Part shown: positions 42,548 through 45,958 of the stretch, piece after piece | Position numbering within the stretch: position 1 is the stretch's first letter | Layout: every line of letters begins with the position of its first letter | Assembly (NCBI GenBank): GCA_030426085.1 | Contig: JAUHYW010000014.1 | Span: 62,001-126,000, forward strand | Source of the DNA: a bacterium | GTDB taxonomy: Bacteria > Myxococcota_A > Bradymonadia > UBA7976 > UBA1532 | Length of the DNA: 64,000 nucleotides | Direction: 5' to 3' | The notes under the pieces: model-generated | The model's database searches: none | Seen by the model: the letters and a program-made list of their open reading frames with translations, nothing else | What the model was told of the DNA's origin: nothing | Program-made: the position numbers and the translations under genes

Positions 42548-42826
42548 TCACGGCGCGACCGGCGGGGCGGCCGCTTCGCACCGCTCGGCCCGATCGCGGC
42601 ACTCCGAGACGCAGGCGCTGCACGCCTCGTAGCCCAGGTCGTTGTCGTTGAGCGTCGGCGCCCGCCGGCTGTCGTCCACCGGGGCCAGCGTCTCGCAGCG
42701 GTCGGCGCAGGCGTCGGTGCAGTCCCGATAGCGCTGCTCGCACGCCGGACGCTCGAAGCGGGGCACCCCTCCACAGCTCGTCAGCGACAGCGCCGCCATC
42801 ACGAGCCCGATGCGCGCGCCGCTCAT
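42548..42826 (-). CDS. Small cysteine-rich lipoprotein
   Basis: A 92-residue predicted lipoprotein with signal and LTSC lipobox (Cys18). The mature part has about nine cysteines (CEQRYRDCTDACADRC, ACSACVSECRDRAERC), suggesting a disulfide-rich or metal-binding domain. Its ATG overlaps the stop of the SET-domain gene by 4 bases (ATGA), so it is the second gene of that operon. The family is not recognised. Confidence 0.75.
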   Translation of the reverse strand: MSGARIGLVMAALSLTSCGGVPRFERPACEQRYRDCTDACADRCETLAPVDDSRRAPTLNDNDLGYEACSACVSECRDRAERCEAAAPPVAP

Positions 42827-43335
42827 CCGGCCCCCTCCGGCGCGCCCTCGGCGGCGGCCAGGGCCTCCAGCCACGGCGCGACCGGCGCCCGCGCCCGGCG
42901 CTCTTCGGGCAACAGGTGGCGGTAGCCGGCGACCTGCTCGCCCGACTCGGCGCAGCGGAAGGGCGAGACCATGTCCCACTCGTTGGCGTTGTAGTCGAAC
43001 GTCAGCTCGTCGTCGGCGGCGATGTCCCGCAGCGCGACGAGCCGCCGATCGACTACGCGGGTGTTGGGCCGCCGGCTGTGGTTGAGGTAGGGCCACAGGC
43101 GATCGTCGGGCGACCCGGCCCGATCCGTGGGCGGGGCGAGGTGGGCCCCCGCGCCGACCTGGAGCGTATACCGGCTCCGGCGATCGACGATCCGCCCCGC
43201 GGGCGTCAGGATCACCTCGCCGGCGGCGAACGGCCTCACCGCCCGCAGCGCGCGGTGGTCGGGGGTGATGTGATCGACCCGGACCCGCTCGCCGCGGTCC
43301 ACGTCGTCGGATGGGTCGAGGCTGGGCGTCGTCAT
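42823..43335 (-). CDS. SET-domain protein (putative lysine methyltransferase)
   Basis: A 170-residue protein with both SET signatures: NHSRRPN (85-91) and ELTFDY (110-115), followed by an aromatic NANEWDM loop. SET domains transfer a methyl group from SAM to lysine. The post-SET cysteine cluster is reduced to one Cys in PFRCAESGE, so zinc binding there is unlikely. Bacterial SET proteins are less common than eukaryotic ones, and the protein target here is unknown. It overlaps the small lipoprotein gene by 4 bases. Confidence 0.85.
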   Translation of the reverse strand: MTTPSLDPSDDVDRGERVRVDHITPDHRALRAVRPFAAGEVILTPAGRIVDRRSRYTLQVGAGAHLAPPTDRAGSPDDRLWPYLNHSRRPNTRVVDRRLVALRDIAADDELTFDYNANEWDMVSPFRCAESGEQVAGYRHLLPEERRARAPVAPWLEALAAAEGAPEGAG

Positions 43336-43418: not shown

Positions 43419-43979
43419 TCACCGCTCGAAGATCGCCCAGCCCAGCGCCCGGGCGACGTCCCGGGCGATGTCGAGCGGCGGGCGATCCTCGCCGTCGATC
43501 CGCACGTCGGCCCCGCCGTAGCCCGGCGCCCGCGCCCGGAGCAGCGCCCGCAGGTCGGCCTCGCTGCGCACCGGGTCCAGCTCGGGGTGGTCCTTGCGGC
43601 TGTCGCCGATCCGCCGCACCAGCGCGTCGAGCGGTCGATGGATGTAGACCAGCGTCGCCGCCCGCCGCGCCCGGTGCAGGCTGCCCCGGTCGAGCAGGGC
43701 GCCGTCCCCCAGCACGATCACCCCCGCCGGCCGCTCGCCCAGCGCCCGGGTGAGCGCCTCGGCTTCGACCGCCCGCAGCGCCGCCTCGCCGTGGTCCCGG
43801 AGGTAGGCCGCCCGGGTGCAAGCGACGGCGTGGGCGATCAGCGCGTCGAGCACGGCGAACCGCAGCCCGGTGACGCTCGTCAGCAGCCGCCCGACCAGCG
43901 CGGTCTCGGCGCCGATGAAGCCGATCAGCGCCACCGGCCGGTCGAGGTGGATGACCGGGTGGGGGTCGTAATAGCTCAT
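43419..43979 (-). CDS. Shikimate-kinase-like P-loop protein with degenerate Walker A
   Basis: A 186-residue protein aligned by eye with AroK: LDALIAH fits the substrate-binding DTD region and VIVLGDGALL the GGGA loop. The Walker A is GFIGAETA (20-27) instead of GxxGxGKS, so the ATP-binding lysine is missing, and the substrate loop reads GDGA instead of GGGA. It is therefore probably not an active shikimate kinase, but may bind nucleotide or act as a pseudokinase. The ATG at 43979 starts the fold; upstream codons are lower-complexity. It follows the Ser/Thr kinase by 38 bases on the same strand. Confidence 0.75.
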   Translation of the reverse strand: MSYYDPHPVIHLDRPVALIGFIGAETALVGRLLTSVTGLRFAVLDALIAHAVACTRAAYLRDHGEAALRAVEAEALTRALGERPAGVIVLGDGALLDRGSLHRARRAATLVYIHRPLDALVRRIGDSRKDHPELDPVRSEADLRALLRARAPGYGGADVRIDGEDRPPLDIARDVARALGWAIFER

Positions 43980-44017: not shown

Positions 44018-45958
44018 CTATTTGTCGACGAGCTTCTGGAGCTGCTCGATGTTGCGCTCGATGGCGTCCCGATAGCTGGCGTTCGGTTCGAGTTCGCGCC
44101 ACTTCTTGCAGTTGATGATGGCCAGTCTGAATGACTCCCGCGACTGGTGCAGGACGCATAGCCTCTGATAGGGCAAGTGGCTATCCGGGCGTCTGCGAGC
44201 GGCCTCCGCCAATAGCTGAATCGCCCTCTCGGGGTGCGACTTGGTCCTCTTCATGGCTAGAGCGATGAGTCGATCGAAGGCGGTCTGCCTGGATGGCTGG
44301 CCCTCTCTTCTCTCCAGCTTCGGATCCCGAGCGACGGCTGGTTGACCTCTCTCGGACTCGATCGGCCGATGGGTGTTGGGTGTTCGAGAGGGGCCGCTTG
44401 CTCTCGTCTTCGGCCCGGAGCGAGGCGGCACCTCCCTCGAGCGGCTTTGTGTTGCAATTCGCCGGGCTTGTTGCAGGAGCGCGCGTCCTCGACGCCACAT
44501 GTCGAACAGCACGAGTTCGCTCATGCGCATGAGAAGGCCTTGTATGGCGTGACCGGTTCGTAGCCGTTCCCCCGACGATGGTGGCGGTGGCTCATCCGGG
44601 TCTCGGCCGGCAGGTTGCCGTGCTGACCGATCAACCACGCTCGAAAGCTGGTCTTCGGCCTTTTCGAGGCCCACTCCATCGACTGAAGCGCCCGTGAACG
44701 CCCGGTCCGGAGCTCTCTCGTACTTCTCTTGGCGGGGGCTCATGGTCGAGTTCAACGGCGCAATGGCTGCCATCGCCCGAGTGTCCGATCGCCCTGTGGG
44801 CCGTCGACGCTCTTCAAGGCTCGGGATGAGAAGTGCGGCCGCTGACAAGACAAGGACACCTCCCACCACGGCGGGAGTGCCTCTCATCGCGCGCCCCCGA
44901 ACACTGGACGTCGACTCATGAACACAAGTCAGCGCTTGCCGCTCGTCATCATCCCCACAACCCTCCGTGGATGGAGGTCGTGTCACGCCGAGGTTCGTGC
45001 CATCGAATAGCGGCGGCAGCAACTGGGGAATCGTATCGGTGTCAGAGCCCGACCCGAGCAGTCCGGTACTCAGGAGCAGTCGGCGAACCTCGGCCATTCC
45101 ATTGGGGCGGGAAGTCCGGTCTTTGGCCAGGCAGAGCTGGATGAGGCCATTCAGCCGTGGTGGGATGTCCGAAATCGGAGGAGGCACGAGCTCGACGTGG
45201 CGTCGGAGTGTCTGCAGGAGGCCATCAGGACTTCGGAAAGGGTTGAAGCCGGCAACGACTTGATAGAGGACCACCCCCAATGAGTAGATATCACTGCGTC
45301 CGTCGATGTCCGACTCCCCGCGGAGTTGCTCGGGCGACATGTACGCGGGTGTACCTGTAATGCGTCCTGTTTGCGAGCGGGCCACGCTCTCGCTGTTGAT
45401 ACGTGCCACGCCGAAGTCCAGCACGCGTATGTGCTTGCCCCCATCGGGAGCCGGCTCGACGAAGATGTTGGCCGGCTTCAGATCCCGATGCACGATCCTG
45501 GCTGAATGGGCCTCTTCGAGAGCGAGGGCGACTTGGTATGCGATCACAGCGGCCGTCGCTGGCGGCAGCCGTCTCGCCCCTTCCAGGATGGCGTCGAGCG
45601 GTTCTCCTCTCAGCAGTTCCATCGCGATGAAGAGGTGCCCATCCTCGGTTGTTCCGGAGGCGAAGACCTTGGCGATGTGACGACTCTCGAGCCGACTCGC
45701 TGCCTCGGCCTCGATCTCGAAACGTCGCACCAGATCAGGCTGCATGGCCGCTCGGCGGGCATTCAAGATCTTGATGGCCGTCTCGGGCTCGGCACCATAG
45801 ACCACACCCATGGCGCCCTGGCCGACGAAGCTCGTCAGAGTCCACTGGGCGACTCGCATGCCGAGAAACGGGTCGATGCGCAGAGGAACATCGTCAACAG
45901 GGCAGCGGCTCAGAGGCTCAGCGAATCGCCGCTGACATCGAGGGCAAATATGGCGCAC
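44018..45958 (-). CDS. Ser/Thr protein kinase with C-terminal TPR-like region
   Basis: A 646-residue eukaryotic-like kinase started at a GTG at 45958. A short zinc-ribbon-like CPRCQ...CPVDD precedes the kinase: a glycine loop VGQGAMGVVYG, invariant Lys63, HRDLKPAN (Asp159), DFG (181-183), TPAYMSPEQ and a Ser/Thr-rich activation segment. The stretch between the glycine loop and Lys63 is shorter than usual. A single membrane segment (VVGGVLVLSAAALLIP) follows about residue 370, then a disordered Arg/Pro-rich linker and a TPR-like C-terminus (AIQLLAEAARRRPDS). It could phosphorylate the FHA-containing sigma-54 activator. It has lower GC than its neighbours (36 of 60 at 44221-44280). Confidence 0.88.
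   Translation of the reverse strand: MRHICPRCQRRFAEPLSRCPVDDVPLRIDPFLGMRVAQWTLTSFVGQGAMGVVYGAEPETAIKILNARRAAMQPDLVRRFEIEAEAASRLESRHIAKVFASGTTEDGHLFIAMELLRGEPLDAILEGARRLPPATAAVIAYQVALALEEAHSARIVHRDLKPANIFVEPAPDGGKHIRVLDFGVARINSESVARSQTGRITGTPAYMSPEQLRGESDIDGRSDIYSLGVVLYQVVAGFNPFRSPDGLLQTLRRHVELVPPPISDIPPRLNGLIQLCLAKDRTSRPNGMAEVRRLLLSTGLLGSGSDTDTIPQLLPPLFDGTNLGVTRPPSTEGCGDDDERQALTCVHESTSSVRGRAMRGTPAVVGGVLVLSAAALLIPSLEERRRPTGRSDTRAMAAIAPLNSTMSPRQEKYERAPDRAFTGASVDGVGLEKAEDQLSSVVDRSARQPAGRDPDEPPPPSSGERLRTGHAIQGLLMRMSELVLFDMWRRGRALLQQARRIATQSRSREVPPRSGPKTRASGPSRTPNTHRPIESERGQPAVARDPKLERREGQPSRQTAFDRLIALAMKRTKSHPERAIQLLAEAARRRPDSHLPYQRLCVLHQSRESFRLAIINCKKWRELEPNASYRDAIERNIEQLQKLVDK

Follow-up and report, generated by a model that had tools for sequence, protein, structure and literature searches.

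The gene and its neighbours

The gene described here lies on the reverse strand of the window (the whole 64,000-nucleotide stretch of DNA that was analysed) at 43419..43979. Translation of this interval gives 186 residues and a stop, with an ATG start at 43979. The product is a P-loop-less shikimate-kinase-like protein with an N-terminal YY, and we use the name YY family for proteins of this kind. Two genes flank it on the same strand. Upstream, a gene for a Ser/Thr protein kinase of 646 aa (44018..45958; Pkinase 139.6 bits) ends 38 bp before the start codon, a position that does not in itself imply a partnership, and downstream, after a gap of 83 bp, there is a gene for a SET-domain protein of 170 aa (42823..43335).

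The earlier note had pointed to the adjacent Ser/Thr kinase. The adjacency holds, but it is weak evidence of function, because beyond the window's genome a kinase gene directly upstream was seen only in a genome of the same genus (G001) and in one distant genome (G129). A conserved Ser/Thr kinase partner was thus rejected as a feature of the family. Neither blastp nor phmmer matched the SET-domain neighbour to anything in the 32 other regions examined. Another SET-domain gene of the genome (L181:3747-4328) is found ~4.5 kb from its DUF3080 gene, which is discussed below.

Sequence motifs and predicted fold

Three short motifs characterize the protein, all encoded on the reverse strand. Residues 2-8 (43956..43976) form the N-terminal motif SYYDPHP, recognized by aligning the family against 65 other shikimate-kinase-type domains. 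Translation and alignment place a degenerate P-loop, GFIGAETA, at residues 20-27 (43899..43922), with T26 at the lysine position, and GDGA in place of GGGA at residues 91-94 (43698..43709). The missing ATP-binding lysine and the GDGA loop, both proposed earlier from the sequence, are therefore borne out by translation.

We aligned the protein with E. coli AroK and with the AroK and the BoxR-like domain of its own genome. Where these have the G-K-S of the P-loop, it has E25-T26-A27, so that GFIGAETA departs from the canonical GxxGxGK[S/T] of shikimate kinases. Two further changes, which the earlier note had not mentioned, concern V43, which stands where Asp32 is canonical, and the LID region. 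The latter reads KDHPEL vs. RPLL, and the position of the LID arginine falls on H131 in one alignment and on D135 in another, an arginine in neither, which again differs from shikimate kinases. The shikimate-binding site of the reference enzyme (D34, R58, GGG and R136, in its residue names) is kept in part: D45, R69 and R150 stand at the Asp34, Arg58 and Arg136 positions, while GGG is replaced by GDG.

The Pfam SKI model (PF01202) matches with 65.1 bits against a cut-off of 22.1, spanning residues 29-177 and thus beginning just past the P-loop. All 12 NCBIfam matches were far under their cut-offs (best 69.9 vs. 186 bits). An AlphaFold model built from four sequences reached a pLDDT of 83.4 and a pTM of 0.80 (pLDDT 58 over the first ten residues). 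The first Foldseek matches to it were shikimate kinases (best 1zyu, E 2.2e-10), and VIA-align superposed it on 4y0a with Z 20.3 over 171 residues at 2.4 Å. As far as this predicted structure goes, the shikimate kinase fold is kept.

Other shikimate-kinase-type proteins of the genome

The window's genome (10.1 Mb, 178 contigs) has four PF01202 matches. One, on contig C89, is the canonical aroK that the earlier note had proposed to look for. It carries GMTGVGKS and GGGA and is located between a PilQ-like secretin and aroB (both named from reading frames rather than from a family search), in an order that equals hofQ-aroK-aroB of E. coli K-12. A genome lacking a true aroK was accordingly rejected. 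The earlier note had counted such a lack against its own reading; since the canonical gene is present, this objection does not apply.

A second match, on contig C162, is of the regulator type; it carries GVRGAGKS, and its gene adjoins a crotonase-like one. By eye, this protein (L001:1495-2793, reverse strand) is BoxR-type, combining an HTH with a shikimate-kinase-like domain whose GVRGAGKS is intact; it is divergent from the crotonase-like gene, which hints at benzoyl-CoA metabolism. The window protein accounts for the third match, and the fourth is a fragment at the edge of contig C26 (L004:2-484, reverse strand), a second shikimate-kinase-like frame that shows no P-loop ahead of its FVELD motif, is cut at the contig end and adjoins a RidA-like frame. 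At least one other PF01202 match was present in 32 of the 34 genomes that carry the YY family (see below), in some of them, e.g. G015, of the regulator type only. The two genomes with no other match, G229 and G250, are 76% and 67% complete.

Distribution and conservation of the YY family

A protein search of 95 relatives returned eight proteins with the N-terminal YY motif, the window protein included. When 377 genomes of the phylum were then searched with profiles, the family was found in 34 genomes from 13 family-level groups, membership being defined as a profile match that starts at model position 1 or 2 (a match in G338 starts at position 5 and is outside the count). Scores were at least 123.6 bits in 32 of these genomes and 108.8 in G219, and the member of G331 is truncated by a contig edge; among matches with a later model start, the highest score was 113.1 bits. 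Within the window's own family-level group the family was confined to the window's genus (2/13 genomes). A scan of named genomes with the close alignment gave 37 candidate stretches and, among these, 3 confirmed loci. None of the 30 plasmid records found by tblastn covered 80% of the query, and the matches listed include annotated shikimate kinases.

Our residue counts refer to 33 aligned members (that of G331 is in no alignment; a reduced alignment, A2, holds 29 of the 33, without L106, L112, L113 and L115). They were compared with 65 domains from related genomes, both aroK and regulator-type, having at least 130 aligned residues and no duplicates, a set that leaves out the fragment L004 and, by the length filter, L178, a contig-edge fragment without its P-loop part. 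The P-loop lysine was found in 0/33 members vs. 65/65 comparison domains. Two members (L094 and L112) have a lysine one position early, and GK[ST] occurs within the first 60 residues of six of the 33, in none of them within the P-loop octapeptide. The column of the LID arginine holds another residue in 31 members, a gap in one and an arginine in one (L116), vs. arginine in 65/65 comparison domains. The same-genus homologue in G001, 68% identical to the window protein, reads GFIGAETG. Judged from these sequences, the degenerate P-loop is more than chance or sequencing error, because it recurs in G001 and the lysine is absent from all aligned members, which is the conserved loss that the earlier note had proposed to look for. 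GDGA was rejected as a family signature, given that GDG occurs in 5/33 members and the triplet varies. It is very likely that the window protein does not phosphorylate shikimate.

Other parts of the old site survive unevenly. Most members retain GxxG, the D32 position is occupied by D or E in 22/33, and the equivalents of D34, R58 and R136 are found in 21/33, 15/33 and 18/33 members vs. 65/65, 64/65 and 65/65 comparison domains. Could the protein still be a kinase for small molecules, one that does without the canonical lysine in binding ATP and acts on a shikimate-like substrate? The retained GxxG, the acidic residues at the D32 position and the D34, R58 and R136 equivalents of the window protein would be consistent with this. 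However, K, S/T and the LID arginine are lost together, the retained residues differ among members (e.g. R58 and R136), and the new invariants are mostly outside the active site, and we regard such a kinase as quite improbable.

What the members share is mainly a new front end. The N-terminal YY is present in 33/33 and P8 in 32/33, and the motif is absent from the 65 comparison domains. P15 and G38 (each 33/33), E49 (28/33) and H50 (27/33) are also conserved, of which P15, G38 and E49 are common, though not invariant, in the comparison domains. Judging by the order of strands and helices, the N-terminal strap, T37-G38 at the end of helix 1 and E49-H50-G53 at the end of helix 2 should lie away from the old active site, although the model is of low confidence over the first ten residues.

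In the tree, with the motif columns dropped, a single branch parts the 33 members from the 65 domains (SH-aLRT 99). The same split was recovered, again with SH-aLRT 99, after also dropping the columns that are at least 90% identical in the comparison domains. Three members form the longest end branches of the tree, and the family evolves more loosely than other shikimate kinases, as might be expected of a decaying, functionless aroK duplicate. That explanation is already disfavoured and appears highly improbable to us. The reading frames are open in 33/33 aligned regions (L112 is shorter, with 159 aa from the motif), and the motif is invariant across the 13 family-level groups. By a simple counting method, which is rough in GC-rich genomes, dN/dS was 0.16-0.72 in eight of nine pairs (0.48 for the window protein vs. 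G001; the ninth pair was saturated), i.e. below 1 in all eight measurable pairs, as in a gene under constraint.

Comparison with described shikimate-kinase-like proteins

The window protein shares fold and overall length with AroK/AroL (PF01202) and exceeds the Pfam cut-off. It differs from them in that the YY family lacks the P-loop lysine and forms a separate clade with a YY N-terminus, and in that the window protein has no LID arginine and is not encoded beside aroB. The earlier suggestion of a pseudokinase or repurposed fold gains support from the P-loop-bearing aroK beside aroB and from a loss that is conserved in a separate clade.

The closest described cases are plant SKL1 and SKL2, old shikimate kinase duplicates without shikimate kinase activity (PMC2593004, PMC12203367). 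Of the two, SKL1 has lost the LID motif, retains a P-loop that is largely intact and under purifying selection, and contains a PGM-like motif; SKL2 carries a CS domain (PMC2593004, PMC12203367). The SKL1 motif, LALLRHG[IV]S (PMC2593004), is absent from the window protein by inspection, and there the P-loop is lost as well. The YY family differs in that the P-loop itself is gone, and we saw neither a PGM-like motif nor a CS domain. A P-loop is kept in the shikimate-kinase-like proteins with which we compared the family (SKL1 as described in the papers, and the BoxR-type protein of the window's genome). An open-licence literature search returned no paper on the bacterial YY family.

BoxR joins a shikimate-kinase-like domain to a DNA-binding domain, and fungal QutR-type repressors, multidomain proteins derived from AROM, are a non-catalytic reuse of shikimate pathway enzyme folds. 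The YY family resembles the BoxR-type regulators (NF006015) in that the latter have such a domain in a presumed regulatory protein, but unlike the family, the genome's BoxR-type copy keeps GVRGAGKS; against the multidomain QutR-type repressors, the family is single-domain and bacterial. By analogy, the protein may be a small-molecule sensor that uses the old shikimate pocket and signals to a partner, for instance the Ser/Thr kinase. The window protein retains part of the shikimate site, NF006015 (a benzoate regulator model) matches 24/29 members, and the kinase gene is 38 bp upstream. Nonetheless, the window protein has no N-terminal DNA-binding domain (only 15 residues precede the first strand of the model, and there is no such Pfam match), the kinase neighbour recurs beyond the genus only in G129, and the pocket residues vary across the family. 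We therefore find a sensor of this kind unlikely.

The window protein is most readily interpreted as a pseudoenzyme in which the shikimate kinase fold has been put to a non-catalytic binding or regulatory use. Binding rather than phosphorylation is probable because the parts that hold ATP and catalyse are lost and a new conserved front end is shared. The family would have derived from shikimate kinase, losing the ATP site and phosphoryl transfer while retaining the fold, and would act through binding, either to a partner or to a small molecule. Its conserved face would consist of the N-terminal YYDxxP strap and of the terminal parts of helix 1 (T37-G38) and helix 2 (E49-H50, G53) rather than of the former active site. 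The old site may also bind a ligand weakly, since GxxG survives in most members and the window protein has the D34, R58 and R136 equivalents. A bacterial family with its nucleotide site given up entirely, its fold kept and a new invariant motif gained would mean that a small fold can persist as a binding protein. We note that members match shikimate kinase models and are easily misnamed, by which pathway reconstruction can be misled.

Association with DUF3080 and photolyase-type genes

Flanking genes of family members vary by lineage (in a neighbour listing that leaves out eight loci missed by the gene finder: L089, L091, L094, L107, L113, L115, L117 and L119), with the exception of a gene for a DUF3080 protein, judged a lipoprotein from its N-terminus by eye. 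DUF3080 (PF11279) is unrelated in sequence to the YY family. It was found in 15 of the 377 genomes, all 15 of them among the 34 family genomes, and is absent from the other 19. The chance of such nesting is 7e-18 unstratified and 2.6e-9 within seven family-level groups, for which group sizes were hand-copied from listings and genomes outside these listings left out. In two examples, the neighbouring protein scored 164.9 and 148.2 bits.

The two genes are less than 7 kb apart in nine of the 15 genomes. They are adjacent in six, with DUF3080 directly upstream on the same strand at gaps of -4 to +9 bp in five (G187, G225, G206, G210 and G266) and as a divergent neighbour in G286, and are 3.4-6.5 kb apart in three (G221, G329 and G229). 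In the remaining six (G000, G001, G013, G014, G015 and G217), the window's genome included, DUF3080 is on another contig. No other shikimate kinase match in the DUF3080-bearing genomes was listed on the DUF3080 contig. Co-occurrence and adjacency support the view that the family protein works with DUF3080, yet direct contact between the two is not obvious, because a lipoprotein would be exported. The open-licence literature yielded no functional description of DUF3080, and the one paper found to mention it concerns callose synthases; a similar gene set presumably surrounds it in Vibrio and Shewanella.

Taken as a whole, we consider it probable that the window protein belongs to a stand-alone family with the shikimate kinase fold in which ATP binding and phosphoryl transfer have been lost, that it acts by binding and, less certainly, that it serves a process shared with DUF3080. 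This process may concern the envelope or stress and, in some lineages, may sit within photolyase-type gene clusters. The nested co-occurrence provides a first entry point for genetic work on both proteins, neither of which is characterised.

A DPRP photolyase-related flavoprotein was found in 25/34 family genomes vs. 74/343 others (Fisher p 1.7e-9), and within the seven groups 15 cases were observed where 8.7 were expected. Its gene overlaps or abuts the family gene in three genomes (G221, G329 and G229), and in G225 the two are within ~0.6 kb of each other, so that a physical photolyase link was seen in only four genomes of two families. No light module was seen near the window gene; the genome's DPRP gene (L186:1377-3074, near the start of contig C40) is ~100 kb away on the same contig. 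By eye, no photolyase was seen at the DUF3080 loci of G000 and G001. From the neighbours in a few genomes we would guess at a response to light or stress as the shared process. A bolder idea, tentative and on the unlikely side, is that the phylum-wide ATP-independent family, together with the DUF3080 lipoprotein and in many cases a cryptochrome/photolyase-like flavoprotein, makes up a hitherto undescribed module for light or envelope stress, with the dead kinase serving as a binding switch via its new YYDxxP face.

Further genes were noted around some of these loci. A MerR regulator is near the family gene in G266 and an Fpg-like glycosylase in G229, the latter identified in the cluster at L116. 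In G187, the DPRP gene is at a separate locus, close to a photolyase and to a protein that has 2-thiouracil desulfurase and DUF1722 domains. The loci L110, L111 and L116 (G221, G329 and G229, all of one genus) share a cluster of DUF3080, an SRPBCC-type gene, a small membrane protein, DPRP and the family gene.
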